From Mycobacterium sp. (lineage in GTDB: Bacteria > Actinomycetota > Actinomycetes > Mycobacteriales > Mycobacteriaceae): 25,026 nt of DNA. The notes under the pieces are model-generated. The model did not search any database. It saw nothing but the letters and a program-made list of their open reading frames with translations, and was not told the DNA's origin. Below, piece after piece: positions 3,149 through 19,452 of this stretch. A program made the position numbers and the translations under genes. Within the stretch, counting starts at the first letter, position 1. Each line of letters begins with the position of its first letter. The stretch lies in assembly GCA_018500005.2 (NCBI GenBank), contig JAHBAP020000399.1:1-25026 (forward strand). The letters run 5' to 3'.

Positions 3149-4096
3149 CTAGGTCGGGACGAAGACGGTGGCGCGGACCGCAAGATGGTCGGAACCGGGA
3201 ACCCGGACGGTCCGTAGACCCGCCGCCGAACTGTTCCTGGTCAGGATGTGGTCGATACCGATCAGCGGTGGTACCCGGGAGTCCGCGGGAAACGTCGGGT
3301 TGAGGCCGGCACCGGATTGTTCCGCCGCGTCGCGATACCCGTTATTCAACAGCCGACGGAAGGGCAGCATGTCGGCCGTGGCGTTGAAATCACCGGCGAC
3401 GATCACCGCGCCGTCGCCCGCCCACCGAGCCGCATCCGTGAGAGTCCCTGACAGAGAAACCATTTCGTTGCGCCAACCGTCGATCGGCCACGGCCACGGG
3501 CCCACCACGTGGGCGCCCAGCACGACCGTGTCTGCGGGGGTCCCGGGGATCTTCACGGTGGCGCTGAGCATGCCGAGGCGGTAGCCGCTGATCCGGACGT
3601 TGTTCGCCATCCGGTGCCGACTCCAGATGCCCACCCCGCCGGGGGATTCGTTCGTGTCGAGCGCCCGGTAGGGGAAATCCGAGGCGAGTTCGGACAGCCC
3701 GCGGGCGAACTCGGGGGTGAGTTCCTGGGCGATGAACAGGTCGGCGTCCGAACGGGCCAGGTTGACAACGGATTTCATATCGGCCTGGCTCTTGCCGAGG
3801 TTGATGGTGACCACCCGGACCGCGACACCGCCACTGCGGTCGCTCGGCAGCAGTCGCGGCAGCTGCACGACGACCCCCGCGACCACCAGTGCCACGGCCA
3901 CTGCTGCCGCCGGCCACCGGCGGTTGCCGAGGAGTAGTAGAACCGCGGCCATTCCGGCGCTCATCGTCAGATAAGGCGACAGAGCCGCAACAAAGAGGAC
4001 ACCATGGTTGACGACCGGCACGAAGCGGACCGCCAGTCCGACCACGGCGATCAGGAACGCGAACCAGGCCAGCAGGTCACGGGCTGTCCGCGTCAC
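3149..4096 (-). CDS. Membrane-anchored endonuclease/exonuclease/phosphatase (EEP) family protein
   Basis: A 315-residue protein: three N-terminal transmembrane segments (about residues 8-26, 31-56 and 62-80) followed by a complete EEP-fold domain. The metal and catalytic motifs of the family are all present: VVTINLG (95-101), QEL with Glu125, GAH with His196, GDFNA (235-239), IDH (281-283) and SDH (302-304). EEP enzymes cleave phosphodiester or phosphomonoester bonds in nucleic acids, inositol phosphates, sphingolipids or other substrates; the substrate cannot be read from sequence. The domain should face outside if the odd number of helices starts inside. The GTG at 4096 is chosen because it overlaps the stop of the upstream fusion gene as GTGA, implying translational coupling; longer starts would run into that gene. 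Association with the nucleotide-sugar enzyme suggests a role in envelope glycan or lipid-carrier metabolism, which is inference. Confidence 0.85.
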
Positions 4097-6417
4097 CACC
4101 CGAATCCGACGAGTTTCAGACCCGATCCGGCAAAAGTGGCTTCGGGCAGGCAATTTCGACCGTCCACCACGAGATTGCCGCGCATTACCCGACGGAGTCC
4201 TTCGGGGTCGATGAGCCGGAATTCCGGCCATTCGGTCGCGACCACCACTGCGTCCGCCCGGTCGGCCGCGGCATAGACGTCGTCAGCCAGTCGGACGTCG
4301 CTGAACTCCGCCGGAAGCGTCTTGACGACGGGATCGAACGCCGAGACCGCTGCGCCCCCGGCAAGCAGGCGCTGTGCGATGTCCAGGGCCGGCGCGTCGC
4401 GCAGGTCGTCGGTTCCGGGCTTGAACGCCAAACCCAGCAAGGCGATCCGACGGCCCTTGAGCGAGTGCAGTTCGCGTTGCAGCTTTCGCACTGCGCTCGC
4501 TCGCTGGCTCTGGTTGATCTCGATGGTCGCGTGCAACATCGAGGGGGTGTAGCCGTACTCCTGGCTCGAGGCGATCAGCGCCGACACATCCTTGCCGAAG
4601 CACGAACCGCCCCATCCGACACCGGGATTGAGGAACGCGCTGGAGATCCGGTGGTCGGCGCCGATGGCGGGCAGCACCTCGCGGACGTCGGCGCCGAACA
4701 GTTCGCACATCTGCGCGATCTCGTTGGCGAACGAGATCTTCGTCGCCAGAAACGCATTGGCGGCGTACTTGATCATCTCCGCCGAGGTCAGCTCGGTGGT
4801 GATCAAGTCCGGGCGAAGTCCGCGCCGGCTGCCGTCGAAGGTTTGGTCGAGTACCGGCTGATACAACTCTGCGACCCTGGACACGTCGGCGGCCGCACCG
4901 CCGAGCACGATGCGGTCCGGATAGAGGAAATCGTCGATCGCCGACCCCTCCCGGAGGAACTCCGGGTTGGACACCACCGCGAATGACAACTCGCGGTTGC
5001 CCAGCAGGGCGTCTTCGAGGATGGTTCGTGTCCAGTTGCCCGAGCCGACCGGCACCGTGGACTTGTTGACGATCACCACACCCGGGCGAAGATACGGCGC
5101 CAGGGACTCGATGGCGCCTTCCAGTTGGTCGAGGTCCGGTGACCCGTCCGGACCGGGTGGAGTGCCGACGCACAGGAAGACGAACTCCGCGTCGGAGAGT
5201 GCCTCCTGGATGTTGTCGGTGAACCCTAACCGGCCGGACGCCATCGTCGACTTCAGCATCTCCGGCAGGCCCGGCTCGACGAAGGGCACCTCGCCACGCC
5301 TGAGCCGGCTCGCCCGCTCGGTATTGGTGTCCAGGCCGCACACCTCATGTCCGAGGAACGCCAGGCAGGTGGCGGTGACGGCGCCCACGTAGCCGGTGCC
5401 GATGACGGCGACCTTGTGCCGCGGAGTCGACGGCTTGGCGGCGCGACTGCCGATCAGCGGGGTGGTGGACGGCTGGACGCCTGCGGCCCGGTCGCGGAAC
5501 CAGTCGATGGTCGCGCGCAGCCCGTCGCGGACGTCGACCCGCGGCTCCCACCCCAGCTTCGTGCGGGCGACGGTGATGTCGGGCTGGCGCTGCGACGGGT
5601 CGTCCTCGGCGCGTGGGATGAAACTGAGCGGTGAGTCGGACCCGGTCAGTTCCCGGATCAGTTCGGCGAGTTCCAGAACCGTCATCTCGTGCGGGTTGCC
5701 GACGTTGACCGGCCCGGCGAGGTCGGAGAACAGCAACCGCAGCGCCCCGTCGATCAGGTCGTCGACGTAGCAGACCGACCGGGTCTGACTGCCGTCGCCC
5801 TGGACGGTCAGCGGCTCGCCGGCCAGGGCCTGGGTGATGAAGTTCGGGATGGCGCGGCCGTCGTTCGGGCGCATCCGCGGGCCGTAGGTGTTGAAGATCC
5901 GCAGGATCGCAGTGTTCACGCCGTGTTTGGTGCGGTAGGAGGTGGTGAGCGCTTCGGCGAACCGTTTTGCCTCGTCGTAGCACCCGCGCGGGCCGACCGG
6001 GTTGACGTTGCCCCAGTAGGTTTCCGGCTGGGGGTGGACCAGTGGGTCCCCGTAGGCCTCCGAGGTCGACGCGAGCAAATAACGGGCGCTCTTCTCCATC
6101 GCCAGGCCGAGGGTGTTCAGCGTGCCCACCGATCCGACCTTCATGGTTTGGATCGGCAGTTCGGCATAGTCCACCGGTGATGCCGGCGAGGCGAAGTGCA
6201 GGACGTAATCGACCGGTCCGGCGATCGAGATGTAGTTGGTGACGTCGAGTTCGATCAGTCGGAAGCCGTTGCGGCCCAGCAGGTGCGCGACGTTGTCCGG
6301 GGAACCGGTGGAGAAGTTGTCCAGGACCGTCACGTCTACGTCCTGATCGAGCAGGCTCTCGGCGAGATGGGAGCCCAGGAATCCGGCACCGCCGGTCAAT
6401 ACCGCATGTGGCCGCAT
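4093..6417 (-). CDS. Fused UDP-glucuronate decarboxylase (UDP-xylose synthase) / UDP-glucose 6-dehydrogenase
   Basis: One uninterrupted 774-residue frame with two enzymes. Residues 1-310 are an extended SDR enzyme: GGAGFLG (9-15), STSEAYGDP with Glu120, the YDEAK Tyr147/Lys151 pair, and [15 protein letters not shown] with Arg213, the pattern of UDP-xylose synthase. A linker of about 25 residues (310-334) leads to a full UDP-glucose dehydrogenase: [10 protein letters not shown] (336-345), NKSTVPVG (451-458), [18 protein letters not shown], the catalytic Cys606 in GGSCFGKD, and [13 protein letters not shown]. The C-terminal half would oxidise UDP-Glc to UDP-GlcA with NAD and the N-terminal half would decarboxylate it to UDP-Xyl. 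The ATG at 6417 is preceded by AGGAGG and AGAGGAG. The 3' end overlaps the EEP gene by 4 nt. Family calls are firm; whether UDP-GlcA is also released for other use is unknown. Confidence 0.95.
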
Positions 6418-6434
6418 CTCCTCTGTCCTCCTGT

Positions 6435-6461
6435 TCGTCGCGATCGTCGCGATCGTCGCGA
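6435..6461. repeat. Tandem 9-bp repeat in the divergent intergenic region
   Basis: GATCGTCGC occurs twice in tandem (6442-6450, 6451-6459), preceded by a partial copy TCGTCGC (6435-6441). Each junction creates the palindromes CGATCG and GCGATCGT. It lies between the fusion gene and galE, probably within the 5' leader of the fusion gene, and could be an operator or chance sequence. Confidence 0.5.
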
Positions 6462-6475
6462 AAGCCGTGCGGCGT

Positions 6476-6482
6476 TACGCTA
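6476..6482. promoter_or_regulatory. Overlapping divergent -10 elements for the fusion gene and galE
   Basis: The plus strand reads TACGCT (6476-6481) and the minus strand TAGCGT (6482-6477), both matching TANNNT at nearly the same bases. This would start galE RNA near 6488 and fusion-gene RNA near 6470, leaving leaders of about 45 and 53 nt. No -35 consensus is evident, as is common in mycobacteria. Confidence 0.4.
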
Positions 6483-6532
6483 TCAACTCACACGCGCGAG
6501 CAAACAGTGCCGATCGCAGGGAGATCGCGAAC

Positions 6533-7594
6533 ATGAGCCAGACCATCCTGGTGACCGGTGGCGCCGGGTTCATCGGCAGCCACACTTGTGTCGAGTTGCT
6601 CAACGCCGGCAATGACGTCGTCATTCTCGACGACTTCTCAAACAGCCATCCGGAGTCACTGGGCCGGGTCCGCGAGATCACCGGGAAGTCGGTTGCCGTG
6701 CACGCCGTCGACCTGCGTGACCGCACCGGTCTGTCGGCGGTGTTCGACGCGCATCCGATCGACGCGGTGATCCACTTCGCCGCCAAGAAGGCCGTCGGCG
6801 AGTCCACCCAGATACCGCTGGAGTACTTCGACATCAACATCGGTGGCACCACCAATCTGCTCCGCACGATGAACGACCACGGTGTCACGCGTCTGGTGTT
6901 CTCCTCGTCGTGCTCGATCTACGGCGACGCGCCCGCCGAACCGCTGGCCGAGTCGGCCCCGGCCGCCCCGACCAACCCCTACGCGCTGTCGAAGTGGATA
7001 TGCGAACAACTGCTGTCGGAGGCGTGCCGGCACCTGCCCGCGCTGTCGGTGATCGCGCTTCGGTACTTCAACCCGATCGGCGCGCACCCCAGCGGACGGC
7101 TGGGTGAGGACCCGTTGGGGGTTCCCTACAACGTGATGCCCTACCTGGCGCAGATCGCGGTCGGCAGGCTCTCCGAACTGAGCGTGTTCGGCGACGACTA
7201 CGACACTGGAGATGGAACGGCGATCCGCGACTACATTCACGTCGTCGATGTCGCCGATGCGCACCGGGTCGCATTGGAGCACCTCGACGACCGCACCGGC
7301 TTCCAGGTCTTCAATCTCGGCACCGGATCGGGTGTCTCGGTGCTGCAACTCGTCGCCGCGTTCGCTGCCGCCTGCGGCAAGGAGATCCCTTACCGGATCG
7401 TCGGCCGGCGGCCGGGTGACGTACCGAGCCTGGTTGCCGATCCGGAGCGCGTCGATCGCGAATGGGGTTGGCGCACAAAGCGGGACCTGGCCCAGATGTG
7501 TGACGATGCCTGGCGGTTCCAGAACCAGAACCCGGCAGGGTACGTCGGTGTGGCGGCAGTCAGCCCCGACGAGGTCAGCGGCCGGGAGTCCTGA
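6533..7594 (+). CDS. galE: UDP-glucose 4-epimerase GalE
   Basis: A 353-residue extended SDR enzyme that interconverts UDP-glucose and UDP-galactose, possibly also the N-acetyl forms. Seen are the NAD-binding GGAGFIGSH at the N-terminus, SSSCSIYGD with the catalytic Ser, YALSKWICEQLL with the Tyr-x3-Lys pair, and RYFNPIGAHPSGRLGEDP, the diagnostic GalE segment. The frame is open from 6467, but the ATG at 6533 is chosen because the Rossmann motif should begin within a few residues of the start and AGGGAG (6518-6523) lies 9 nt upstream. The gene diverges from the UDP-xylose/glucuronate fusion gene across 115 bp, and its last 20 bp overlap the convergent ATP-grasp gene. It would supply UDP-Gal to the glycosyltransferases of the locus. 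Mycobacteria carry other galE genes, so this is probably a dedicated paralogue. Confidence 0.93.
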   Translation: MSQTILVTGGAGFIGSHTCVELLNAGNDVVILDDFSNSHPESLGRVREITGKSVAVHAVDLRDRTGLSAVFDAHPIDAVIHFAAKKAVGESTQIPLEYFDINIGGTTNLLRTMNDHGVTRLVFSSSCSIYGDAPAEPLAESAPAAPTNPYALSKWICEQLLSEACRHLPALSVIALRYFNPIGAHPSGRLGEDPLGVPYNVMPYLAQIAVGRLSELSVFGDDYDTGDGTAIRDYIHVVDVADAHRVALEHLDDRTGFQVFNLGTGSGVSVLQLVAAFAAACGKEIPYRIVGRRPGDVPSLVADPERVDREWGWRTKRDLAQMCDDAWRFQNQNPAGYVGVAAVSPDEVSGRES

Positions 7595-8843
7595 ACAGCC
7601 CGCGCAGCCGCACCGCCAGTGACTGCCTGACCTGAACCAGGAAGCTGGCGACGACAGGAGCCATATCGTCGGCGGCCAGCCAGGCCGCCTTCGGCCGACC
7701 GTGGCCGCCGAACCCCTCGAGCGGATGACGTGGTTCGGATACCAGGCTGGGGATGTCCCATGCCTCGACGGCAAATCGCTCCCCATCGATCTGGGCGCCG
7801 ACGGGAATCTGGCGACCGGACAGGTCCAGGTGCATGGCCCGGACCACGTCGACTCCGGCGGTGTCTTCGAACAGGCGGAACTGCGCACCGACGCGGGGAT
7901 TGAAATCGAGCAGGTAATAGCGGCCGGTTCGCCGGTCGAGCCGCCAGTCGATGTCGAAGATCCCCCGGTAGCCCACCTTCGCGCAGAACAACTCCGCCAG
8001 GGCGACGAGTTCGGGGTTTGGCGCACTGTAGGCCGCCGCGGTCGCCCCGCCGCGGACCGGCCAGGACCGCACCTTTCGGCCGGTGAACACGACCCGCGCC
8101 GCGCCGGCGCCGTCGCAGTAGCCGTGGGTGAACCAGTCCTCGCAGTGCTCGTCGGGCAGGTACTCCTGCACCAGCACCTGAAACGGCTCCGCCCATCCCC
8201 GGGCCATTCCCTGCAGTTCCTCGGCGGTGCGCGCCAGGGTGGAGTCCACGACGCTCTGGGCCTGGCCGCGCAGTGCGGTGCTCTTCACCATGACCGGCGG
8301 GGAGATCTCGGCCAGTGCCGCGTCGATTTGAGCCGGCGTGTCCGCGGCCACCGACAGCGGTACCGGCATGCCGTGGCGTCGGCACAAGTCGGCGAGACTT
8401 TCCTTGTCCGCCAACTGCCCGGGCAACTTCCGGTCCACGTCCGGGAGCACGAACCATTCCTCGAGAACGGCGCGCCGCCGGGCGACCAGGACCGCCATCT
8501 CATCGGAGGTGCAGACGATCACCGATCGGCGACCTAGTTCGCGACCGAAGCCAACGAGGCGGTCGAGTAGAACGTCGTACCCCTCGCCCCGGTAAGGCTG
8601 CCAGAGAATCTGTCCACGCGCGTAGCGAGACTTCATGACGGGCGCCTTCGGGTGTCCCACCACCGCGTACACCGGGACGCCCGCCCGCCCCAGGCTGCGA
8701 AAGACTCCCAGGCAGTTGTGTTGGAGCGAGAACGGTGTCACCCACAACACCACGGCGGGCAAACCGACGTCCAGGTCCGGGGTTGCGTGGGAGCGGTCGG
8801 GGCGTAGGACTAGGTCGCTCCACCTTCGCCGGGCGCCACCCAT
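7575..8843 (-). CDS. ATP-grasp family ligase
   Basis: A 422-residue protein with ATP-grasp architecture: an N-terminal preATP-grasp segment (AVVLWVTPFSLQHNCLGVFR, then the VIVCTSDEMAVLV strand), a central lid region (PPVMVKSTALRG, VLVQEYLPDEHCEDWF), and the metal/ATP-binding end GIFDIDW...YYLLDFNPRVGAQFRL. ATP-grasp enzymes form an acyl-phosphate on a carboxylate and couple it to an amine or thiol. In capsule loci such enzymes can attach amino acids to uronic acids or to peptides; which applies here cannot be told. The ATG at 8843 has a TACGAT -10 element 8 nt upstream and no Shine-Dalgarno, indicating a leaderless transcript. It follows the GT2 gene in the same direction after a 57-bp gap and converges on galE with a 20-bp overlap. 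No signal peptide is seen, so it is cytosolic. Confidence 0.85.
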   Translation of the reverse strand: MGGARRRWSDLVLRPDRSHATPDLDVGLPAVVLWVTPFSLQHNCLGVFRSLGRAGVPVYAVVGHPKAPVMKSRYARGQILWQPYRGEGYDVLLDRLVGFGRELGRRSVIVCTSDEMAVLVARRRAVLEEWFVLPDVDRKLPGQLADKESLADLCRRHGMPVPLSVAADTPAQIDAALAEISPPVMVKSTALRGQAQSVVDSTLARTAEELQGMARGWAEPFQVLVQEYLPDEHCEDWFTHGYCDGAGAARVVFTGRKVRSWPVRGGATAAAYSAPNPELVALAELFCAKVGYRGIFDIDWRLDRRTGRYYLLDFNPRVGAQFRLFEDTAGVDVVRAMHLDLSGRQIPVGAQIDGERFAVEAWDIPSLVSEPRHPLEGFGGHGRPKAAWLAADDMAPVVASFLVQVRQSLAVRLRGLFRTPGR

Positions 8844-8851
8844 GGCGATCG

Positions 8852-8857
8852 ATCGTA
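8852..8857 (-). promoter_or_regulatory. -10 element of a probable leaderless promoter for the ATP-grasp gene
   Basis: Minus-strand TACGAT (8857-8852) is 8 nt before the ATG at 8843. The spacer sits in the 10-bp palindrome CGATCGATCG (8846-8855), which overlaps the -10 element and could be a protein-binding site. It would allow transcription independent of the upstream glycosyltransferase genes. Confidence 0.5.
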
Positions 8858-8900
8858 CTTTGGGTCTGTTCGACTTCGCGAGTTGAAGGGCCGCGGTTTC

Positions 8901-10238
8901 CTACTGGGCAGCGATCCGCCGGGCCGAATCGCGCCGCAGTGCGCGGCGATGGTTGCGTCGGCTGCGAAGGTAGGCCAACGGCCCGTAGAGCCGTCCCTTC
9001 AGTTCCACCCTGGTCAACTCCGGCGGATACTCGACATCGGGTTTGTCGGTGCCCTGCCCGCGCCGCGCGAAGGCGATGATCGCCGGTATCCGCGCGATCA
9101 GCCGCAGGCCGTCGAGGGGATGGGCCACAACGAGTTTGGTGAGGTATGCGGTGAATCCGACACCGTAGGTGTAGAACTGGTCCCGCAGCGCCGGGTAGTC
9201 GGCACGGTGCAGATGGTTCACCAGCGCGGCCGGCTGGTACACCAGTTGATAGCCCGCCTGCACGATCCGGTAGTAGATGTCGAGGTCCTCGCCGTTCTTG
9301 GCCAGTGTTCCCGGCCCCAGCACGGGGTCCAGCCCGCCGACCGAACGCAGGGCGGTCGCCCGGAAGGCCATGTTGGCGCCGGTGCCGAACATGCTTGAGC
9401 GCCAGGGGAACAGCCGGTCGTCGGGCCGGTTGGCGGCCAGGTCGAACACCCGTCGGCGGAACCCTTTGTTGAATCCGCTGTGGGTGTCGAACCAGTACTG
9501 CGACGGTGTCTCGATCTCCTGCGGGACTACCAGTCCGGTGACGCAGCCGACGTTGTCGCCCATCGCGAATCCGCGCAGGAGTTCGCGCAGCCAGTGCCGG
9601 TCGACGATCACGTCGTCATCGGTGAAGGCGATGAACTCCCCGCCGGCGTGCCGCAGGCCGCAGTTGTGCGCCCAGCCCAGACCCGGATGCGGTTCGCGCA
9701 CATAGTGAATCCGCGGATCGGTGGCGTACCGATCGGCAATCAGGTCGGCGGTGTCCTCGGTGGACGGGGCGTTGTCGACCACGACGATCTCGTAGTTCGA
9801 ATAATCCACCCGATCGAAGGCCGCCAGGCACAGCGCCAGGCTGTCGGTGCGGTTCCGGGTGGCGATGATGACGGTGATCAGTGGGCAGTCCGCGGTGGCG
9901 CGGTCGCGTTCGACCAGGCACGGTGGCCGGGTGTCGCCGGGGATCCCGGTGACCGCCAGCGACGACAGCTCTGCCATCCCGTCTGCCTGCAGATGCTCGT
10001 TGATCCGCGCCCCCAGATCAGCCCAGATTTCCCGGGCCAACACTTCGGCGGGCAGCGTCCCGCCCGGCAGAGTGAGCTCGATCATGCCCAGCGGTTCGTC
10101 GTGCAGTCGCACCAATGCCCAGGCCCTGGTGTATACGGCGCCTTGTTTATCGCGGGTCGCTGCGACCTCGGGCAGGGCTTCGCCGATCTCGACCTGCAGC
10201 ATTCTGATCGGGGCGAAGTTCGGCAACTCTGCGCTCAC
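8901..10238 (-). CDS. GT2-family glycosyltransferase with an extra N-terminal domain
   Basis: A 445-residue protein. Residues 1-115 form a separate alpha/beta domain of unknown role. Residues 118-400 are a GT-A fold transferase: PLITVIIATRNRTDSLALCL, the nucleotide-binding VVVDNAP, the metal-binding FTDDDV (TDDD 206-209), acceptor-side CVTGLVVPQEIETPSQYW, and NGEDLDIYYRI with the Glu-Asp catalytic base motif. A weakly hydrophobic stretch and a basic tail (RSRRNHRRALRRDSARR) may hold it to the membrane surface. It would transfer a sugar from a UDP- or GDP-sugar to a lipid-linked glycan on the cytosolic side. The GTG at 10238 overlaps the stop of the upstream GT4 gene as GTGA, so the two are translationally coupled. 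Donor and linkage are not predictable. Confidence 0.92.
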   Translation of the reverse strand: MSAELPNFAPIRMLQVEIGEALPEVAATRDKQGAVYTRAWALVRLHDEPLGMIELTLPGGTLPAEVLAREIWADLGARINEHLQADGMAELSSLAVTGIPGDTRPPCLVERDRATADCPLITVIIATRNRTDSLALCLAAFDRVDYSNYEIVVVDNAPSTEDTADLIADRYATDPRIHYVREPHPGLGWAHNCGLRHAGGEFIAFTDDDVIVDRHWLRELLRGFAMGDNVGCVTGLVVPQEIETPSQYWFDTHSGFNKGFRRRVFDLAANRPDDRLFPWRSSMFGTGANMAFRATALRSVGGLDPVLGPGTLAKNGEDLDIYYRIVQAGYQLVYQPAALVNHLHRADYPALRDQFYTYGVGFTAYLTKLVVAHPLDGLRLIARIPAIIAFARRGQGTDKPDVEYPPELTRVELKGRLYGPLAYLRSRRNHRRALRRDSARRIAAQ

Positions 10239-11443
10239 CCGAGCACCTCCCGGTACACCGACTCGATCTGCCCGACGACCGTGCTCGCGTGGAAGGCGGT
10301 GACCCGTTCGCGGCCGGCGGCGCCCATCCGCGCCGCCAGCGTGGGGTCGTCGACCAGCGTTGCCATCGCGGTGCGTAACGCATCGGAGTCCCCGGGCTCC
10401 ACCACGATTCCGGTCTCGCCGTCGGCGACGATCTCCGGCAGCCCGCCGATGCGCGAGGCGATCACCGGCTTTCCGGCCGCCATCGCCTCCATGGCGACGC
10501 CGGGACAGGGGTCGGGCCAGATGGACGGGACGATGCCGGCCAGACTGTGCCGCCAGGCGGTCATCACGGCGGTATGCGGCCAGTTCTTGAGCACGATGAC
10601 GTTGTCGGGAAACGACTTCGGCGACTCGGGCAGGGTGTAGCCGACGAGGACCAACGGGGGAGCCCCTGCGAGTCCGGCGTAGGCATCCAGCAGCGTCTCG
10701 ACGCCCTTTTGCCGGGTCAGCGATCCGACGAAGAGCAGGTAACCGTCCGCGGGAAGCCGATCGCGATACGACTCGTCGCCGAGATCCCCGACGGTGTCCG
10801 GAATGAAGTTGGGAATGATCCGGTAGGGACTTGAGCCGCCTGCCAGGCCGTTGCCGATCGCCACCGCTTCGCTCACCGGGATGAACATGTCGACCATGCG
10901 GCGCTCGGGCACGGCGGTCGCCCAGTTACCCACGGCCACCGCAGTGCCCTTGACCACCCCGCTGTAGCTGATGGTGGCGCAGGACAGGCATTTCACCGGA
11001 CCGGGCCCGGCGCAGGGTTCACCGTCGCGCATCAGAATCCAGTTCGCGCAACGCATGTTGTAGTCGTGCACGGTGGCGACCAGCTTGGCCTGGCTGCTGC
11101 CCTTGATCGGCAGGAACGACCGACCCATCCAATTGTGCGAATGGACCACATCCGGCCGTTCGCGCCGGACCACGTCGCGGATTTCGCCGACCAGTTCCGG
11201 GTCCGGTATCGGGGGCGCATGGGTGCGGTCCCGGAAAATCCGCTCGGACCGCTGCAGGGTGCCGCGAAGGCGGTAGACCCGCACCCCGGCGTCCTCCTCG
11301 TAGGGTTCCAGGCCGGGGCCGGCCAGGGTGGCCACTGCCACGTCATGCCCCCGTGCGACCAGTGCGATGCTCAGGTTCCGTACGTACTGTTGTGCTCCGC
11401 CGATCATCGGGGGGTAGGAGTCGATGAGCATCAGGATGCGCAT
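10235..11443 (-). CDS. GT4-family glycosyltransferase (GT-B fold)
   Basis: A 402-residue retaining-type transferase of the GT4 family. The N-terminal acceptor domain starts MRILMLIDSYPPMIGGAQQYV; the C-terminal donor domain has LLFVGSLTRQKGVETLLDA and the nucleotide-binding block ending MAAGKPVIASRIGGLPEIVADGETG. The usual E-x7-E pair reads D-x7-E (Asp311, Glu319). Four cysteines (132, 144, 152, 155) lie in an insertion, CxxNW...CAGPGPVKCLSC, found in a subset of GT4 enzymes. First gene of a minus-strand operon whose next gene, a GT2, overlaps its stop by 4 nt. The ATG at 11443 has only a weak GAAGG upstream. It probably adds one sugar to the lipid-linked repeat in the cytosol; donor unknown. 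Confidence 0.93.
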   Translation of the reverse strand: MRILMLIDSYPPMIGGAQQYVRNLSIALVARGHDVAVATLAGPGLEPYEEDAGVRVYRLRGTLQRSERIFRDRTHAPPIPDPELVGEIRDVVRRERPDVVHSHNWMGRSFLPIKGSSQAKLVATVHDYNMRCANWILMRDGEPCAGPGPVKCLSCATISYSGVVKGTAVAVGNWATAVPERRMVDMFIPVSEAVAIGNGLAGGSSPYRIIPNFIPDTVGDLGDESYRDRLPADGYLLFVGSLTRQKGVETLLDAYAGLAGAPPLVLVGYTLPESPKSFPDNVIVLKNWPHTAVMTAWRHSLAGIVPSIWPDPCPGVAMEAMAAGKPVIASRIGGLPEIVADGETGIVVEPGDSDALRTAMATLVDDPTLAARMGAAGRERVTAFHASTVVGQIESVYREVLG

Positions 11444-11689
11444 GGGTGCCTTCGGGTGTCGGCCATGAACTTTCGATGGTTGGCTGCCGAGGCGTCGCCG
11501 CCCGGACCGCGGGCCTCGCCCGGTTATCGTAAGCGGTCAGCCAGCAAATGCCGCCCCGATGGCCGGTCGCTAGCCTGCTACGGCGCGGATGACCGATGAT
11601 AGGACCGGAATCGGAATGAGAATCGAAGGAACTCGGTCACCCTGACTGTCAACGCAACCGACGGCCCCCGCCCCGCTGGGCAGACCGGC
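11444..11689. promoter_or_regulatory. Divergent intergenic region between the GT4 operon and the membrane-protein operon
   Basis: 246 bp without a gene. TATCGT on the plus strand (11525-11530) and TACGAT on the minus strand (11531-11526) overlap, so both could be -10 elements of a divergent promoter. TAGCCT (11571-11576) is a second plus-strand candidate. AAGGA (11626-11630) is a Shine-Dalgarno-like site, but it is too far from the GTG at 11690. Confidence 0.4.
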
Positions 11690-14041
11690 GTGGTGGAGCA
11701 CGACGGCGTTCAGGCCTATCCGCACCATCGTGGCCGAGTCATCCTGATCCTCTGGCAGTTGATCGCCATGGCGGGCCAGGTGTCGGCGATTCACCTGGCC
11801 CGGTTGGGACACGAGAAACCGGCGGACGTCCTGTCGACCGTGTGCATGGGGGTGATGTACGGCAGTGCGGTCTGGGTGCTGACCCGGCCCAAGCTGTCCC
11901 GGACTTCGCGCAATATGGCGATCGCCTGCCTGGCCGTGACGCCGACGCTGATGTCGCGCGCCAATGATCCGCTGATATTCACCGGGTTCGACGAGCAACT
12001 ACACATGCGCACCCTCGCCGACATCATCGCCTCGCACCGGTTGTTCGAACCCAATCCGGTGCTCGAGATCAGCCCGCGTTATCCGGGTCTTGAGACGGTC
12101 ACCGTCGTGCTGAGTGAGTTCGGCCTGCCGCCCATGGTGGCGGCCCTGGCCGTCATCCTCATCGCCCGCCTGATCCTGGTATTCGTCCTGAGCGACGCCG
12201 TCGAACTATTGACCGAGAGCTCCCGGGCGGGTGGCCTGGCGGTCGCCGTCTACGCGCTCTCGCCGCAGTTCGTGTGGTTCAACTCCCAGTTCTCCTATCA
12301 GACCGTGTCACTTCCGCTGGCCCTCGGAGCGATAAGCATGATCGGGCGGGCGCGCCACTCCGAAAACCCGCTGCCACTGTTCGGCGGCGCGACGGTGTGC
12401 CTGCTGGGGGTGGCACTGACGCACCATCTGACGAGCTTTCTGACCGTCGCCTTCCTGTGCGTCTGGACTCTGGCCGAGCACGGGCAGGCCCGGTTGCGGG
12501 TCGCCTACGGCGCGATGGCGGCCCTTGCGGCGACGGTGTTGTGGGCGATCGTGCAGCGTTCCTCCCTGACGCAGTATTTCGGCCCGATGCTCGATGACTT
12601 GATCTCCGAACTCAGCGGGGGCGTGCGCCGGCAGGCTTTCCACGACTCGTCGGGAACGGCGACACCGCTGATGGACAAGATTCTCCTGCTCACCTATGCC
12701 GGGGCTCTCACCCTCACCGTGATGGCGTTGTTCTTCCTGACCTTGCGCTGGCAGCGCCGCCGCGAACACGACCTGCACTACTGGAACCCCCAACTGCTGG
12801 TGCTGGGCCTGAGCCTGGCCATCCCGATCCTGCTTGCCGCTCGGGTCGTTCCCAAGGGTGTCGAGATCTTCACCCGCTCAAGTAGCTTCCTGTTCCTGCC
12901 GTTGAGTTTCGTGGTGGTCAACTACATGGGCCGGCTGGACTGGTGGCATATGGGCCGGCTGCCGCATCGTCCTCCCCAGGAGTTCGGTCCGGAACCCAAA
13001 CGGCGGCGCGACCTGTTGTGGCATGTCGTGGCCACCGTGCTCGCGTCGGTGGTGTTCCTCGGCGGGTATGTGCTGGGAAGCGGACCGGCCTGGATGCGCC
13101 TGCCGGGTAGTTACATGCCTGCGGCGGATTCCCGTTCGATGGACCCCGAAACCCTCGCGGCGGTGCGGTGGGCCGACGAGTCGCTGCCGCCCGGCAGTCG
13201 TATCGGTGCCGACCGGGTCAGCGCGGTCCTGCTCGCATCGGAAGCGCAACTGTGGCCCGTGTACGAAGGATTAAACGGGGTTAAGACACCCGACCTCTAC
13301 GTTCCGTATCAGTGGGGGCCGGAACAGTCCGACGCGGCCAACGCACTGAAGATCCGGTACCTGTACGTCGACCGGCGGATGGCCGACAGTCTTCCGCCCT
13401 TCGGCATCTACTTCAACACCGGCGAGGCCGGCCAGGGTAAGCAGTTGACTCCCGCTCAACTCACCAAGTTCGACCGGGTTCCCGGTATCAAGATGGTGTA
13501 CCGGCACGGCCCGGTTTCGATCTATGACCTCAAAGGACTCGGCCTGACGGAATACCGAAACGGTTGGGTCGGTTCGACGCCGGTGCTGCGTCCGGTCGAC
13601 CAGGTCGCCATCGGTCTGGTGGTCGGCCTCTTCATCGCCTGGGTGATGGGTAGCCGATTCTGGCCCCGGATCCTCGCGCAGGCTCGGGGGATGTGGCGCG
13701 CCTGTGGGCCCGCCGACGGCGCGGCTGTCCTGTTGGCCGCGACCGGTCTGGTGTCGGCCGCTCTGCTGTTGCTGCATGTATGGCTGACCCCACTGCTGCT
13801 CATTTCCGGGCTCGGGGTCCCCATGCTGGTGTTCCCACACAGAACGGCGGCAATGCTGCGGCGGGCCACATCTCGGGTGACCCGGCGGGGCGTCCTGGTC
13901 ACCGGCGCGTTGTTGATTCCGTTGGCGGCCATCATCGGCTTCGCCGTTTACGACGCGGCCGCCGAGGATGTCGTCGAGGTGCGTCACATTCTCGAGGACC
14001 CGCAAGCCGTCCACATCCCCCCGGATACCCAACGGGGTTGA
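11690..14041 (+). CDS. Large polytopic membrane protein, candidate polysaccharide polymerase or GT-C glycosyltransferase
   Basis: A 783-residue integral membrane protein with about 12 hydrophobic helices in residues 20-470, a soluble domain of roughly 150 residues (from SGPAWMRLPGSY to SIYDLKGLGL), then about 3 more helices. After the third helix is TGFDEQLHMRTL, an acidic pair in a loop as in GT-C enzymes, and LTHHLTSF occurs further on. The soluble domain should be extracytoplasmic and resembles the tail domains of GT-C and polymerase-like proteins. It leads an operon with the flippase (37 bp downstream) and GH16 genes, so Wzy-type polymerisation or lipid-linked sugar transfer outside the membrane is a reasonable inference, not a demonstrated function. 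The start is uncertain: the frame is open from 11603 and an AAGGA lies upstream of an in-frame CTG at 11642; GTG 11690 or 11693 is otherwise used. Confidence 0.8.
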   Translation: MVEHDGVQAYPHHRGRVILILWQLIAMAGQVSAIHLARLGHEKPADVLSTVCMGVMYGSAVWVLTRPKLSRTSRNMAIACLAVTPTLMSRANDPLIFTGFDEQLHMRTLADIIASHRLFEPNPVLEISPRYPGLETVTVVLSEFGLPPMVAALAVILIARLILVFVLSDAVELLTESSRAGGLAVAVYALSPQFVWFNSQFSYQTVSLPLALGAISMIGRARHSENPLPLFGGATVCLLGVALTHHLTSFLTVAFLCVWTLAEHGQARLRVAYGAMAALAATVLWAIVQRSSLTQYFGPMLDDLISELSGGVRRQAFHDSSGTATPLMDKILLLTYAGALTLTVMALFFLTLRWQRRREHDLHYWNPQLLVLGLSLAIPILLAARVVPKGVEIFTRSSSFLFLPLSFVVVNYMGRLDWWHMGRLPHRPPQEFGPEPKRRRDLLWHVVATVLASVVFLGGYVLGSGPAWMRLPGSYMPAADSRSMDPETLAAVRWADESLPPGSRIGADRVSAVLLASEAQLWPVYEGLNGVKTPDLYVPYQWGPEQSDAANALKIRYLYVDRRMADSLPPFGIYFNTGEAGQGKQLTPAQLTKFDRVPGIKMVYRHGPVSIYDLKGLGLTEYRNGWVGSTPVLRPVDQVAIGLVVGLFIAWVMGSRFWPRILAQARGMWRACGPADGAAVLLAATGLVSAALLLLHVWLTPLLLISGLGVPMLVFPHRTAAMLRRATSRVTRRGVLVTGALLIPLAAIIGFAVYDAAAEDVVEVRHILEDPQAVHIPPDTQRG

Positions 14042-14078
14042 GGGGTGTGGCCGGAACGAAAAAGATGAGAAGCTTCCT

Positions 14079-15425
14079 GTGAGCAGCAAGCGGAGTTTCC
14101 TGCTGCGCAACGCCGCGGCACTGGTATCCACTTCGGTGGTGACCGCGGGGCTGGGCTTCGTGTACTGGACCGTTGCCGCGCGGATGTACGCGGTATCCGA
14201 CGTCGGTGAATCGACCACAGCCATCTCGGCGATGAGTCTGATAGCGCCGTTCACGGTCCTGGGTTTCGGTACGGCGCTGATATCGCGGCTACCGACGATG
14301 ACTTCCGGTCGTGCCCAACTGGTCTCCACCGCCGTCGTGATGTGCTCACTGGCCGCGTGTCTGGTCGCTCTGGCGTGCGCGATGATCCTGCCGGCCAAGT
14401 TCATCGGGCTTCCGGGAATCGGCGAAAGCATCTGGCCCACAATGCTTTTCGTGGGCGGGGTAGCTGCTCATGCGGTTGGTCAACTTCTCGACAATGCGCT
14501 CCTGAGCGCCACCGGCGGCGGTATCCAACTCGGGCGTAACACCGTTTTCGCTGTTACCAAGCTCGCTTTGCTGGTGATCTTCGCCCTGACGCTGAATCGG
14601 TACGGCTCTTTGAGCATCTACGCAAGCTGGTTCATCGCCGGCGTGATATCGATTCTGGTTGTCGGCGTCAAACTTGTCCGGGACCACCGTCTGCCACTGC
14701 GAGAGCTTCGGCCCCGGCTGTCGGCGTTGGACGGGCTGCACTTCCACGCCGTCAAACACCACCTTCTGAACCTGTCGCTCTCGGTTCCGTACTACATGAT
14801 GCCGATCGTCGCCAACGTGATCCTGGGCTCGGAGAAGGCCGGCTACCTCTACGCGACGTGGTCGCTGGCCGGATTCGTCTTCATGCTCCCGATGGCGATG
14901 TCGCTCTCCCTCTTCGCCTCCGGGGCAAAGGATTCCAGCGCGATCCTGCGGGAGTTCCGGTTCAGCCTTCGCTCATCGATGGCCGCCTGCGCGGCCGCCA
15001 ATCTGATCATCCTGCCGTTCGGCGGGCTGGTGCTTCGGATCTTCGGGCCGGCCTACGAGGCGAATGGGCACGCGCTGCTCATCGTGCTGTGTATCGGCGG
15101 CTTCGGCGTGATCATCAGGGATCACCATGTGGCCGTTGCCCGGATACTCGGTCACGTCGGACGCGAGGCTGCCGTGATGATCGCCCTCGGCGCGGGCGAG
15201 ATCATTGCGGCGGCGATCGGGGCCTACCGAGGCGGGCTGCTCGGATTGGGTATCGGGTGGCTGGTCGCGATTGCAATAGAGGTTGCGGTGTGCACGCCTT
15301 TGGTCTGGCGGGCCTATCGTGGCCGCCTCACCGTCCCCGGCTCGGCGGGCGCGGGTCCGGACGGTCCTGTACCAACCGATGACCGCGCTGGGATGATGGG
15401 CGAAGCAGGTACGGCGGAGAGTTGA
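14079..15425 (+). CDS. Polysaccharide flippase, Wzx/MATE-like (MOP superfamily)
   Basis: A 448-residue protein that is hydrophobic throughout with 12-14 predicted helices and short loops. It starts SSKRSFLLRNAAALVSTSVVTAGLG, a layout typical of oligosaccharide flippases: a short basic N-terminus, first helix, then YWTVAARMY.. DVGESTTAISAMSL. The PYYMMPIVANVILGSEKAGYLYATWSL segment matches the middle of the family. It would move a polyprenyl-linked oligosaccharide across the plasma membrane. The frame is open from 13968, inside the upstream gene, but the GTG at 14079 is chosen because it gives the normal N-terminus. It lies 37 bp after the polymerase candidate and 6 bp before the GH16 gene. 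The C-terminal ~25 residues are polar and Gly/Pro-rich. Confidence 0.88.
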   Translation: MSSKRSFLLRNAAALVSTSVVTAGLGFVYWTVAARMYAVSDVGESTTAISAMSLIAPFTVLGFGTALISRLPTMTSGRAQLVSTAVVMCSLAACLVALACAMILPAKFIGLPGIGESIWPTMLFVGGVAAHAVGQLLDNALLSATGGGIQLGRNTVFAVTKLALLVIFALTLNRYGSLSIYASWFIAGVISILVVGVKLVRDHRLPLRELRPRLSALDGLHFHAVKHHLLNLSLSVPYYMMPIVANVILGSEKAGYLYATWSLAGFVFMLPMAMSLSLFASGAKDSSAILREFRFSLRSSMAACAAANLIILPFGGLVLRIFGPAYEANGHALLIVLCIGGFGVIIRDHHVAVARILGHVGREAAVMIALGAGEIIAAAIGAYRGGLLGLGIGWLVAIAIEVAVCTPLVWRAYRGRLTVPGSAGAGPDGPVPTDDRAGMMGEAGTAES

Positions 15426-15431
15426 GGTCAA

Positions 15432-16310
15432 GTGGTGATCGCGGCAGGGCGCATCGGACTGGTCGCTGCCCTTATCACCGCCATGGGCATCGTCAGCATC
15501 CTGAACCCGGACCAGGCCGCTGATTCCTCGCCGCATGGCTGCAGTGACCCGCCGGCTACCCTTCCGCTGGCCGGTGCCTTTTCAGCCGCCCTGCCGAGCC
15601 AGGACACGCCGCACACGGAGTTGTTCGACGATTTCCAGGGGGCGCCCGGCGCCCCGCCTGACCCGGCGAAATGGACCGTCATCGAGGGTGCCGGCTGGGA
15701 CCGTGGAGACCAGAAGTACGCGCGGGAGAACGCCGTGCTCGACGGTGAGGGGCACTTGGTGCTCCGCGCCGAGCAGGCCGGCGGCGGCCATGCCTCCGGC
15801 CGTGTAGAGACCCGCCGAAAGGCTGCCTTCGGCTACGGCACGCTGATCGCGCGGATCAAGATGCCCGCCGGCAAGGGGCTGTGGCCGGCGTTCTGGTTGA
15901 TGGGCGCCGATGAGGACAACCGCCCGTGGCCCGAAGCGGGGGAGATCGATGTCGTGGAGTTGGTCTCCGACCCCCGGCGGCGGTACTCCTCGCTGCACGG
16001 TCCGATTCCGGATGTGAAGGACCATCTACAGGCTCAGGTCGTCGGCGACTCACCCGACCTGAGTGCGGATTTTCACGATTACTGGGTGATCCGCGAGCCG
16101 GATCGCGTGATCGTCGGCATCGACGATATCGTCTGGGCCGACTTCACGCCGAAGTCGTTGCCGCCCAATGCCAGCTGGGTGTTCAACAAGCCGTTCTGCG
16201 TGATCCTCAATCTCGCCGTCGGCGGGGACTGGGCCGGGCCGCCCGACGGTTCCACCGTGTTCCCGGCCGCCATGCTGGTCGACTGGGTGCATTGGCAGCC
16301 CGCGGTCTAG
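15432..16310 (+). CDS. Secreted glycoside hydrolase family 16 (beta-glycanase)
   Basis: A 292-residue protein with an N-terminal hydrophobic segment (residues 8-24) that reads as a signal peptide or anchor, then a GH16 domain. The diagnostic catalytic block is GEIDVVELVSD, with nucleophile Glu171, Asp173 and acid/base Glu176. It is preceded by KGLWPAFWLMG and followed by FHDYWVIREPDRVIVGIDD and the NLAVGGDWAG substrate-cleft segment. GH16 enzymes cut or transglycosylate beta-1,3/1,4 glucans and galactans outside the cell. The tandem GTG codons at 15432 and 15435 follow TGAGG, and the gene is 6 bp behind the flippase stop, so the two are co-transcribed. By analogy with ExoK of the rhizobial succinoglycan locus it may trim the locus's own polymer; that is inference. 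Its stop interlocks with that of the convergent BcsB-like gene. Confidence 0.93.
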   Translation: MVIAAGRIGLVAALITAMGIVSILNPDQAADSSPHGCSDPPATLPLAGAFSAALPSQDTPHTELFDDFQGAPGAPPDPAKWTVIEGAGWDRGDQKYARENAVLDGEGHLVLRAEQAGGGHASGRVETRRKAAFGYGTLIARIKMPAGKGLWPAFWLMGADEDNRPWPEAGEIDVVELVSDPRRRYSSLHGPIPDVKDHLQAQVVGDSPDLSADFHDYWVIREPDRVIVGIDDIVWADFTPKSLPPNASWVFNKPFCVILNLAVGGDWAGPPDGSTVFPAAMLVDWVHWQPAV

Positions 16311-18379
16311 GGCTCGTCGATAGCGGCCGCGGCCTCGGTGGAGGTCTGCTTCTTGGTGCGCAGCACGATGAGCACCGCGCCGGCCAGGGCGAGCAGGGCG
16401 ATACCGCCGGCTCCCCACCACACCCAGTTGTCACCGCTCTGACCCTGCGATGCCGACTCGTCGGTCGGCAGGTCACTTGGCCGGTTGGGAACGGTGACCG
16501 GTTCACTGCCCGGTGTGAAGATGACGGCCCGGCCGTCGAGTTCCGGCCAGCGGCCCTTGCCCAACGACAGGCGACGGAGTAACTCGTCGAGTTGCGCCGG
16601 GTCGCCGGTGGACGTGGCGATCAGCACGGTGCGCTGACCGTCGAACACGGTCTGCAATGAACCGTATTTGATCGCCGGGTCGAGGGTCAGGGTGGTGGGC
16701 TCGCCGGCACTGTTCATCGCGTCGATGGTGACTTTCCCGAGGTCCGCGCTGATCGGCAGTGTCACCGACGGGTCTTTCCATCCGTCGGCGGAGATCAGGA
16801 TCGCCGGCTCGCCGCTGTCGATCGCCTGCTGTAGTTGGGTCACCTCGGTGATCAGCGGCAGTTTGCTGCTGCGTTGTAGGCCGACGATGATTCGGGCGGC
16901 GCGCACAGTGTCGTTGAAGGTGTCCGTGCCGATCCCGATCTGTACCCGCGGCATAAGCGCCTGCGGCAGGGCCCGGAAGCCGGGCGGCACCGGCGGACTG
17001 GCCCGGCTTACCGATATCTCGGTGCTGGGGTCGATCCGCAGCGTCGGGTTCAGGTAGTCATTGCAGTGCCCGCGATCGCCGGTGGTCTGGAGCGTGATCT
17101 TCAGGCCGGTGACCCGCTGTGCCATCCGGTTGGGGATGGTCACCCAGCGGTCGATGATGCCTTCGGAGTTGGCTGCCCAGCGATCGAACACCTGGTCGCC
17201 GATCGACGCGGTCACCTCGCTGTTGAAATTGCTCGGCAGCGGAGTGAAGGAGCCGATCACATGCACCCGGATGTCGTCCACGGGCTGGGCGAATACGCTT
17301 TGGTCGATGGAGATCGTGGCGTTGGGCCGCAGCGCTTCCGAACTTTTCACCGGCTGTTTGAGGTCGGCCAGTGTCACCGAGTCGGCGGCCGGCTTGAGTT
17401 CGGTCGTCAACGGCCCGGCGACGGCCTTGCCGCTGAGCGCGAACGGCAGGGACGGGTCGGTCAGCAGCCGGGTTTGGTTGATCAGCTCATCGCCCGGGCC
17501 GGAGATCAGCAGCGAGGGCATTCCGGCTCCGCGTTGCAGGGTCAGCCCGGCGTCCGGGCCTTCCTTGATGACGATCTGCCGCTCGCCCGGCGCTGACTCG
17601 GGCAGGGTGGTCTGGCCGTCCGGCAGGGCAATGACAGCGACATCGGTTCCTTGCCAGCCGAACCGTGCTGTCAGGTCGGCTGCCAGTTGGATGGCGGCAT
17701 CCGATTCGACCGGCGACAGCGTTCGCGGCACCGCGATGGTGACCCGGCGCAGTGCCGGCGGCAGGAAGGCGGCCACTGTTGTGGGGGGCGCCTGGGTGCC
17801 GCCGAAGGTAATGGAGCTGTCCACCATCCGGATCGCGTTTTCGGCGTCCCAGCAGAAGGATTCGATCGCCGGAACCGCGGTGATCGTCAACGTGACACTG
17901 GCCCAGTTGTCGAACGACTCGATCCCGTCGAGGGGAATCGCCAGCCGCGACTGATCCTTGAGCGGCAACGGCATCCGGCTGAGGGTCCGGCCGTTTTGGG
18001 TCACGGACAGATACCCGAAGCGCAGCTCCACCGGAATCTCGACTGTCGCGTTGAGACGGGCCGGTACCAGACCTGTTGGGACGATGAACGAAAACGTTCC
18101 TTTGGAAACCTCTCTGGGGTCGAACTCGATGGTGTTCGAGGAACCGAGGTCGGCCAGCGGGAACGCCGCATCGTCGCGGGGAACGGTCGGCGGGGTACCG
18201 TCCGGCCTCGGCTGGTCGGGGCTCATCGCAACCGGCGGTGTGCCAGGTGCCGGCGGCCCGGTCGTGACGGGTGTCGGTGGCTCGGTCGGTTCGGCCACCG
18301 CATACGGCGTCGTACCGGACCCCAGCACGACCATCGCAGCCGCGCCGACGAGCGCGGTCGACCGGCGCAGACTCATCAC
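16307..18379 (-). CDS. BcsB-like exported, membrane-anchored polysaccharide-synthesis subunit
   Basis: A 690-residue type I membrane protein: a signal peptide ending near AVAEP (about residue 30), a Pro/Thr-rich linker (30-70), a large extracytoplasmic region, and one C-terminal helix (652-673) followed by a basic stop-transfer RTKK. The extracytoplasmic part looks duplicated, as in cellulose-synthase subunit BcsB: two beta-rich carbohydrate-binding-like segments, one ending at FCWDAENAIRMVDSSITF (Cys176) and one at HCNDYLNPTLRIDPSTEI (Cys439), each followed by an alpha/beta flavodoxin-like segment. BcsB guides the nascent chain from the synthase BcsA; no BcsA lies in this window. The GTG at 18379 has TAGAGT exactly 6 nt upstream and no Shine-Dalgarno; the adjacent ATG at 18376 is the alternative. 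It is downstream of a GT2 gene by 52 bp in the same direction. Confidence 0.82.
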   Translation of the reverse strand: MMSLRRSTALVGAAAMVVLGSGTTPYAVAEPTEPPTPVTTGPPAPGTPPVAMSPDQPRPDGTPPTVPRDDAAFPLADLGSSNTIEFDPREVSKGTFSFIVPTGLVPARLNATVEIPVELRFGYLSVTQNGRTLSRMPLPLKDQSRLAIPLDGIESFDNWASVTLTITAVPAIESFCWDAENAIRMVDSSITFGGTQAPPTTVAAFLPPALRRVTIAVPRTLSPVESDAAIQLAADLTARFGWQGTDVAVIALPDGQTTLPESAPGERQIVIKEGPDAGLTLQRGAGMPSLLISGPGDELINQTRLLTDPSLPFALSGKAVAGPLTTELKPAADSVTLADLKQPVKSSEALRPNATISIDQSVFAQPVDDIRVHVIGSFTPLPSNFNSEVTASIGDQVFDRWAANSEGIIDRWVTIPNRMAQRVTGLKITLQTTGDRGHCNDYLNPTLRIDPSTEISVSRASPPVPPGFRALPQALMPRVQIGIGTDTFNDTVRAARIIVGLQRSSKLPLITEVTQLQQAIDSGEPAILISADGWKDPSVTLPISADLGKVTIDAMNSAGEPTTLTLDPAIKYGSLQTVFDGQRTVLIATSTGDPAQLDELLRRLSLGKGRWPELDGRAVIFTPGSEPVTVPNRPSDLPTDESASQGQSGDNWVWWGAGGIALLALAGAVLIVLRTKKQTSTEAAAAIDEP

Positions 18380-18385
18380 GGCAGA

Positions 18386-18391
18386 ACTCTA
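18386..18391 (-). promoter_or_regulatory. -10 element of a probable leaderless promoter for the BcsB-like gene
   Basis: Minus-strand TAGAGT (18391-18386) is followed by exactly 6 nt and then GTG at 18379, the ideal leaderless spacing. It lies in the 52-bp gap after the GT2 gene and would let the BcsB-like gene be transcribed on its own. Confidence 0.5.
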
Positions 18392-18431
18392 CCGAAGGTC
18401 GGAAATGCGTACACGGCTAACCCTTGCGCAT

Positions 18432-19400
18432 TCACCGGGAGCTCCCGGGGGCTTTCAAGCGGGCTTTCACGCTGGCATAGACGTATCCGTACGCCGTCGC
18501 CGCAAACCCGACCACCATGGCTGCGCTCTGCCCGAGATGACCGAGCCGACGGCCGGGTGTGCGGGCGGCGGTGACCAGTTCCCGGGCGAAGGCCTTCGGC
18601 AGCACCGCAACGGTGAACCGCCGCTCGGTGCTCAACGCGTCGGACTGACCGACCATGGTGCTGAGTTGCCGCTTGGAGAATCCCTCCCAGAAACACCGGC
18701 GCAGGAAGTACTTCCAGGTGGTGCGGTCGTCGGAGACCCAGTGTCGGACCTTGACCGAAGGGTCGAGCAGCAGCAGGGGAGCGGCCGTCTGCTGGTTGAT
18801 CCGGATGCACAGTTCCGTCTCGTCGCACCGCATCAGATTGGATCCGGTCTGCCCGATCTCGGGATTGAACCCGCCGACGGCATCCAGGGCTTCGCGGCGG
18901 AAGGACATGTTGCAGCCCAACAGATTGCGCACCGGTGCCCGGTGCTCGGGAAGGCCTTCGTGGCTGCAGCCGACCACCCAGTTGAAGGTGTCCGGGAACC
19001 AGGCCGGACGTTCGGCCGGCCAGACCGGCTGTGCGTTGCCGCCGACGCCGGTCACCGCGGGGTCGCGGTAGTCCTCGCGCAGCCGTTCCAGCCAGCCGGG
19101 CTGGACCTGGGCGTCGTCGTCGACGAACGCGACGACATCACAGCGTGACGCCTCGATCCCGGCATTGCGGGCACCGCATATTCCCTGGTCGTTCCGGTTG
19201 GGCACCACCGTGGCCCGCGATCCGTACTCTGCCGAGACCCGTGCCAATAACTCTTCGTTGTAGTCGATGACGACCACCAGCTGATCGTCCGGCCGCAACT
19301 GGGCCAGGATCGCCTCGATGGAGCTGTCCAGCAACTCCCGGCGGGCGTCGGTGTAGGCGCATACGACGGCTGAGATCGTCACCACGGTATCGACAGACAT
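18432..19400 (-). CDS. GT2-family glycosyltransferase
   Basis: A 322-residue GT-A transferase. It begins MSVDTVVTISAVVCAYTDARR, has VVVIDYN, the metal-binding AFVDDDAQVQPGW, acceptor-side LLGCNMSFRREALDAVGGF, and CDETELCIRI for the catalytic-base position, with a weak C-terminal hydrophobic helix (QSAAMVVGFAATAYGYVYA). The frame is open to 19457, but the upstream GTG codons overlap a TATAGT -10 element, so the ATG at 19400 with GGTGGAGG just ahead is used. It precedes the BcsB-like gene by 52 bp and probably shares a transcript. It is short, without the multi-helix membrane part and QxxRW motif of BcsA, so it is not a processive cellulose synthase. Donor and acceptor unknown. Confidence 0.92.
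   Translation of the reverse strand: MSVDTVVTISAVVCAYTDARRELLDSSIEAILAQLRPDDQLVVVIDYNEELLARVSAEYGSRATVVPNRNDQGICGARNAGIEASRCDVVAFVDDDAQVQPGWLERLREDYRDPAVTGVGGNAQPVWPAERPAWFPDTFNWVVGCSHEGLPEHRAPVRNLLGCNMSFRREALDAVGGFNPEIGQTGSNLMRCDETELCIRINQQTAAPLLLLDPSVKVRHWVSDDRTTWKYFLRRCFWEGFSKRQLSTMVGQSDALSTERRFTVAVLPKAFARELVTAARTPGRRLGHLGQSAAMVVGFAATAYGYVYASVKARLKAPGSSR
18435..18448. repeat. 14-bp perfect palindrome at the end of the GT2 gene
   Basis: CCGGGAGCTCCCGG reads the same on both strands and ends one base before the GT2 stop codon (18434-18432). It can form a 5-bp GC stem with a 4-nt loop. There is no T tract, so a termination role is doubtful. Confidence 0.35.
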
Positions 19401-19446
19401 GCCTCCACCCTTTCGGGGCAGTACTTTTCTGGGATCGCTGGCGGTC

Positions 19447-19452
19447 ACTATA
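19447..19452 (-). promoter_or_regulatory. -10 element for the GT2/BcsB-like transcript
   Basis: Minus-strand TATAGT (19452-19447) would start RNA near 19440, giving a leader of about 40 nt that carries GGTGGAGG before the ATG at 19400. It lies in the 172-bp divergent gap shared with the acyltransferase gene. Confidence 0.45.

Follow-up and report, generated by a model that had tools for sequence, protein, structure and literature searches.

The stretch of DNA analyzed here (the window; 25,026 nucleotides, contig C58 of a 72%-complete mycobacterial assembly in 625 contigs) carries 11 glycan genes at 3149-19457, between Rv3235 and tgs3. It is reasonably probable that these genes form an exchangeable surface-glycan cassette, which is held at a fixed chromosomal site, is swapped as a unit and directs the synthesis of an acidic heteropolysaccharide through a Wzx flippase and a GT-C membrane glycosyltransferase. 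The site is conserved, alternative cassettes occupy it, and the trees of the flanks and of the cassettes are in strong conflict, which looks like the exchange of capsule loci, with recombination as its presumed cause. The flanks are secA1 and DUF6459 (Rv3235) on one side and tgs3-PPK2-DUF6912-oxidoreductase-desA3 on the other. An earlier note on this DNA had described a surface-glycan locus with a flippase between Rv3235 and the desA3 side; this description is confirmed, and its gene list holds after relabelling, as follows:

2147-2611, minus strand: DUF6459 protein (Rv3235 family; Pfam E 2e-13; match in 77 of 79 genomes), left flank and left boundary of the exchangeable cassette
3149-4231, minus strand: EEP, with three hydrophobic segments and an exo/endonuclease/phosphatase domain (PF03372, E 3.6e-18)
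4093-6417, minus strand: UXS-UGD, a fused UDP-xylose synthase (about 1-312) and UDP-glucose 6-dehydrogenase (about 334-774), predicted to convert UDP-glucose to UDP-glucuronic acid (UDP-GlcA) and then to UDP-xylose (UDP-Xyl) in one chain
6467-7594, plus strand: UDP-glucose 4-epimerase GalE (TIGR01179, 404.8 bits, above the cut-off of 262.3)
7575-8843, minus strand: ATP-grasp protein (PRK12767 / biotin-carboxylase-like), a putative glycan-decorating ligase
8901-10238, minus strand: glycosyltransferase GT2a, with no transmembrane (TM) segment predicted (PF00535, E 2e-24)
10235-11443, minus strand: glycosyltransferase GT4 (PF00534, E 1.4e-27)
11690-14041, plus strand: GT-C membrane glycosyltransferase, proposed polymerase or oligosaccharide transferase
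13968-15425, plus strand: Wzx-type flippase with 9 hydrophobic segments (PF01943, E 2.4e-4)
15432-16310, plus strand: GH16 beta-1,3(4)-glucanase-like protein, probably exported (N-terminal hydrophobic segment; PF00722; 2hyk, E 1.9e-48, with the GEIDVVE segment), proposed to trim the polymer
16307-18379, minus strand: BcsB-fold protein, anchored by a C-terminal TM segment and proposed to act as a guide in the periplasm
18432-19457, minus strand: glycosyltransferase GT2b (its best-scoring curated model is NF041394, for the haloarchaeal glucuronosyltransferase AglG; 233 bits, below the cut-off of 440)
19573-20982, plus strand: tgs3 (WS/DGAT), right flank

We compared nine loci at the site (L059, L060 and L066 duplicate L043, L048 and L044 and were counted once). 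L027, which has an internal stop, was excluded from A1. The window, L057 and L058 carry a type A cassette, while L043 (genome G032), L044 (G182), L048 (G003), L062, L064 and L073 carry type B, in which gene order and strand differ. In the seven loci with both flanks, the cassette always lies between Rv3235 and tgs3; L058 and L043 have the right flank only. Between the types, the glycosyltransferases are 39-44% identical and GT-C and Wzx 52-58%, whereas within type A these proteins are 71-84% identical. L057 and L044 have closely similar flank proteins (tgs3 96%, PPK2 about 100%, Rv3235 81% over 94 residues), yet their common cassette proteins are only 39-54% identical (EEP 49%, GT4 39%, GT-C 54%). 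Between G032 (L043 and L106) and L062, tgs3 and Rv3235 are 95% identical and GT-C 61%; in pairs other than these two, Rv3235 identity is 61-78%. For the L057/L044 pair, the flank similarity in DNA begins at the start of tgs3, which is 90-96% identical from there on (right flank, 90.5%), while the cassette pieces that align are 65-67% identical and the remainder is not alignable.

The trees repeat this conflict. The tgs3 tree pairs L057 with L044 (100/100) and L043 with L062 (100/99), whereas the GT-C, Wzx and BcsB trees pair L043 with L044 (100/100) and place the window, L057 and L058 together (100/100). The opposite groupings were rejected by approximately unbiased (AU) tests (9 tests, p 1e-3 to 2e-79), and the tgs3 tree rejects the window with L057 (AU p 0.001), though both are type A. 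The cassettes are also mosaic, as L062 joins a type-B right half to a UXS-UGD gene 86% identical to that of the window, and contig L106 of G032 likewise carries EEP and then ends inside a UXS-UGD gene.

Such an insert is rare at this site. We sought Rv3235 and DUF6912 in 79 genomes (that of the window, 70 from the start of an even draw and a further 8 chosen for GT-C matches) and found them on one contig in 75, with a median gap of 2,566 bp. The gap exceeds 8 kb only in the window's genome (G000), G003 and G182, so that 72 of the 75 lack such an insert; in the even draw alone, one of 67 genomes has it. The earlier reading, a glycan-assembly locus with a flippase at a site where other mycobacteria lack it, is supported by this comparison of the interval across genomes. 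GT-C was detected in 20 of 198 genomes of the genus, 10 of these at an identity of at least 46%, and in 5 of 201 genomes of the family, including two from other genera. Four right-flank proteins give a tree in which ten sampled carriers and the empty-site genome G025 form a clade of environmental mycobacteria (100/100), and a clade of the carriers without G025 was not rejected (AU p 0.08). It should be noted that the carriers were picked for holding the locus or its GT-C and are therefore not an unbiased sample, and that in one of them (L108, G106) the cassette and the flank are on different contigs, so that its position at the site is only presumed. A GT-C/Wzx locus lies elsewhere in G098, G067, G104 and G167, whose gap at the secA1-desA3 site is 2.5-3.5 kb; GT-C loci also occur in M. 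komossense and M. palustre, where neither secA1 nor tgs3 is present in the stretches compared. Related loci are thus not confined to this site. As alternative cassettes occupy the site, the proposal that the locus was gained as one block does not hold.

The supply of sugars is predicted from the UXS-UGD fusion and GalE, which would provide UDP-GlcA, UDP-Xyl and UDP-galactose. The UXS and UGD halves match solved enzymes (E 1e-106 and 4e-101) and retain the YDEAK and SCFGKD segments. We considered that the fusion might be a sequencing error and dropped this explanation, as the same fusion, at 75-81% identity, is found in 11 other genomes of the 198 (loci L091-L101, in varied contexts); it is also present in L057 and L062. 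At 10 of the 11 other loci, a neighbor belongs to one cluster, whose single member searched against Pfam is an initiating transferase (Bac_transf), and none of the 11 stretches has a match to secA1 or tgs3. A literature search on the fusion gave nothing on point among its best-ranked matches in open-licence text.

In the pathway that we propose, a polyprenyl-phosphate sugar transferase encoded elsewhere (G000:C420) would begin a lipid-linked unit, to be extended by GT4, GT2a and GT2b, the last of which probably adds glucuronic acid. Wzx would flip the unit and GT-C, in the place of Wzy, would join units outside the membrane, and the VanJ-like EEP could dephosphorylate the spent polyprenyl pyrophosphate. 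The BcsB-fold protein may bind the chain or guide it toward the mycomembrane, GH16 may trim it, and amidation by the ATP-grasp protein is possible. Exchange of the cassette between species would take place by homologous recombination in the flanks, secA1/Rv3235 on one side and tgs3-desA3 on the other. Mycobacterial surface glycans are generally given as alpha-glucan, arabinomannan and mannan, and the product here may be a polymer of xylose and glucuronic acid distinct from the known capsule. More tentatively, this could be a true capsule-switching locus, with whole cassettes replaced at secA1-desA3 through recombination among environmental species, a Wzx/GT-C route in which an oligosaccharyltransferase (OST) fold stands in for Wzy, and a BcsB-fold protein that guides the chain without BcsA.

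Of 21 distinct close loci with GT-C, 18 also have Wzx, and the remaining three (L061, L071 and L074) are short or cut contigs. Wzx likewise accompanies GT-C in all seven distant mycobacterial loci examined (of 10; G055, G143 and G170 were left out) and on the Rhizobium plasmid pRL11, alongside GT2b-like, GT4 and glycanase genes. The pRL11 protein, 33% identical to Wzx, is itself a PF01943 match under the cut-off. In the window's genome, one Bac_transf was found, on a different contig (L104, G000:C420 7280-9912, 9.9 kb), where it adjoins a second EEP and other glycan genes.

The polymerase candidate of the earlier note, the GT-C protein, is kept as a proposed polymerase or oligosaccharide transferase, but not as a recognised Wzy: profile searches found no Wzy family of known type among the 11 genes, and the predicted structure has a GT-C fold, OST-like, with a C-terminal globular domain. 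One of 31 GT-C members matched EpsG (E 0.0037). WWDxG, the acceptor-binding motif of OSTs, is present in none of the 31 relatives (the members of A3), and we therefore did not file the enzyme as an OST (GT66). The scores of ArnT (15.6) and of the mycobacterial AftD (13.9) and AftA (13.3) lie in a common range with those of OSTs, so the fold cannot separate donors. Against PDB sequences, the profiles of GT-C and BcsB matched only at E values above 0.1, and in the plasmid search relatives of GT-C were rhizobial only, at 25-31% identity.

Several points, which concern both the pathway and the conflict of histories, weigh against the cassette being exchanged and making a polymer. Base composition gives no sign of foreign origin, which was accordingly dropped: GC content, a check named in the earlier note, is 0.665 in the cassette and 0.661 in the flank. 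Profile searches found no initiating polyprenyl-phosphate glycosyl-1-phosphate transferase (PGT) among the 11 cassette genes and no match to Wzz in the locus. Wzx scores 21.1 bits, under the Pfam cut-off of 28.2, though we count it as a flippase. The roles of the EEP, ATP-grasp and BcsB-fold proteins are proposed on indirect grounds, and GT-C, instead of acting as a polymerase, could have a protein, a lipid or the wall as its acceptor. On this last point rests the rival that comes closest, in our view unlikely, that this is a glycosylation locus in which the OST-like GT-C moves a flipped oligosaccharide en bloc to protein, lipid or arabinogalactan and no free polymer is made. The range shared by ArnT, AftD, AftA and the OSTs and the lack of WWDxG in the relatives both argue against it, the GH16 and BcsB-fold genes suit a polymer better, and the genes around the Rhizobium relative include a Wza-type exporter and GH5.

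As for the conflict, it is drawn from nine loci only, of which eight are labelled metagenome-assembled genomes and the ninth is the window's genome in its many contigs; the L044 contig is 20 kb long and reaches about 0.3 kb into the left flank, G032 is divided over two contigs, and the groups for the AU tests were named after the identities had been seen. The discordance could thus be an assembly artefact, with chimeric contigs in which cassette and flanks come from different species, and the inverted piece of secA1 at the end of the G003 contig (L048 1-203), itself probably an artefact of assembly, would fit this as well. We regard this as improbable, as the cassette keeps its place next to tgs3 in all seven two-flank and both right-flank loci, and L057, L073, L064 and L062 lie within contigs of 397, 120, 100 and 86 kb. 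Moreover, the flanks of L057 and L044 differ by about 10% overall, so that they belong to different strains, and no fall in tgs3 identity is seen toward the junction. It is very improbable that the locus was gained once, long ago, and has since descended vertically, with loss of paralogues, fast divergence and no exchange: the ten carriers are not rejected as one clade and the window and L057 differ in their cassettes about as much as in their flanks, but on both sides the flanks of L057 and L044 are sisters, although one locus holds a type A and the other a type B cassette, with different gene order and strands; the tgs3 tree splits the window from L057; and such a history would require the site to have held two ancestral cassettes that were then lost reciprocally.

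Turning to the accessory proteins, the EEP reading frame overlaps the next gene and its true start is probably near 4100. We propose that EEP is a polyprenyl-pyrophosphate phosphatase that recycles the lipid carrier, mainly because the Bac_transf of the same genome adjoins a second EEP. VanJ is regarded as a lipid-pyrophosphate phosphatase, and EEP is weakly like its model (29.5 bits, cut-off 700), with no PDB sequence match. The relevant passages of PMC4790382 and PMC5882110 leave the role of VanJ open. The ATP-grasp gene is present in L044, L062 and L067 and was not found in L057.

The BcsB-like label given earlier is upheld by the fold, as the model (pLDDT 73.3) aligns with E. coli BcsB over 536 residues. 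Profile searches found no BcsA-like membrane GT2 in the locus. TIGR03030 exceeds its cut-off in none of the 198 genomes, with one weak match in the window's genome (E 4.3e-5). A lineage-specific BcsB was considered and dropped, as relatives occur in 116 of 198 genomes of the genus, 90 of 201 of the family and 21 of 31 genera. Elsewhere in mycobacteria, among the matches listed, 45 of 101 weak CelA/BcsA-like GT2s, in 43 genomes (including G011, G098, G141 and G187), have a BcsB-like gene no more than 6 kb away, compared with none of 49 stronger CelA-like ones. None of these GT2s, weak or stronger, exceeds the curated cut-off; the weak ones near BcsB-like genes are candidates for the cellulose machinery, which PMC12167362 calls unknown. 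The same paper describes M. marinum EpsH as a 249-residue glycosyltransferase. In 7 of 14 loci (L038, L046, L047, L050, L053, L055 and L056), a BcsB-like gene comes after a series of small genes resembling a ribosomal-protein operon in size and order, and downstream of it lies a gene of a sulfatase cluster (one cluster member tested). At L039 (11696-14676), Wzz/kinase-like and Wzy_C genes come after a BcsB-like gene, which would make this a second type of exopolysaccharide locus in mycobacteria.

If the proposed exchange is real, the genus would have capsular polysaccharide (cps)-like variation by recombination, there would be a gene set with which to test biofilm formation and interaction with phages or grazers in environmental strains, and a GT-C enzyme would be indicated as a polymerase type outside the Wzy families. 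We found no description of such a locus among the best-ranked matches in open-licence PubMed Central text.

The Wzx/Wzy-dependent cps loci of streptococci and enterobacteria, in which whole cassettes are replaced between fixed flanks, have in common with this locus that arrangement, nucleotide-sugar genes, several glycosyltransferases and Wzx. Here, however, GT-C is present instead of a Wzy that could be recognised, neither a PGT nor Wzz nor a kinase was detected in the cassette, genes for the EEP, ATP-grasp and BcsB-fold proteins are additional, and the host is a mycobacterium. The serovar-specific glycopeptidolipid clusters of M. avium are also strain-variable surface sugar genes but decorate a lipopeptide, and we know of no Wzx/GT-C machinery in them. 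Cellulose synthase BcsA-BcsB has the BcsB fold and C-terminal TM anchor in common, while here a BcsA-like GT2 is lacking and assembly would be of the flippase rather than the synthase type. STT3/AglB/PglB, ArnT, AftA and AftD have the GT-C TM fold and C-terminal soluble domain, but structural alignments give 8-14% identity, WWDxG is lacking, and the enzyme here has further C-terminal TM helices and lies beside Wzx and GH16. The Rhizobium johnstonii pRL11 locus (L105, NC_008384.1 422262-433042) has GT-C (27% identical), Wzx, a GT2 40% identical to GT2b, GT4 and a glycanase in common and differs in having a Wza-type exporter, with no BcsB, EEP or UXS-UGD match in the stretch compared. As the GT-C/Wzx core is thus also found in rhizobia, it may be a general, as yet unnamed, route of polysaccharide assembly.

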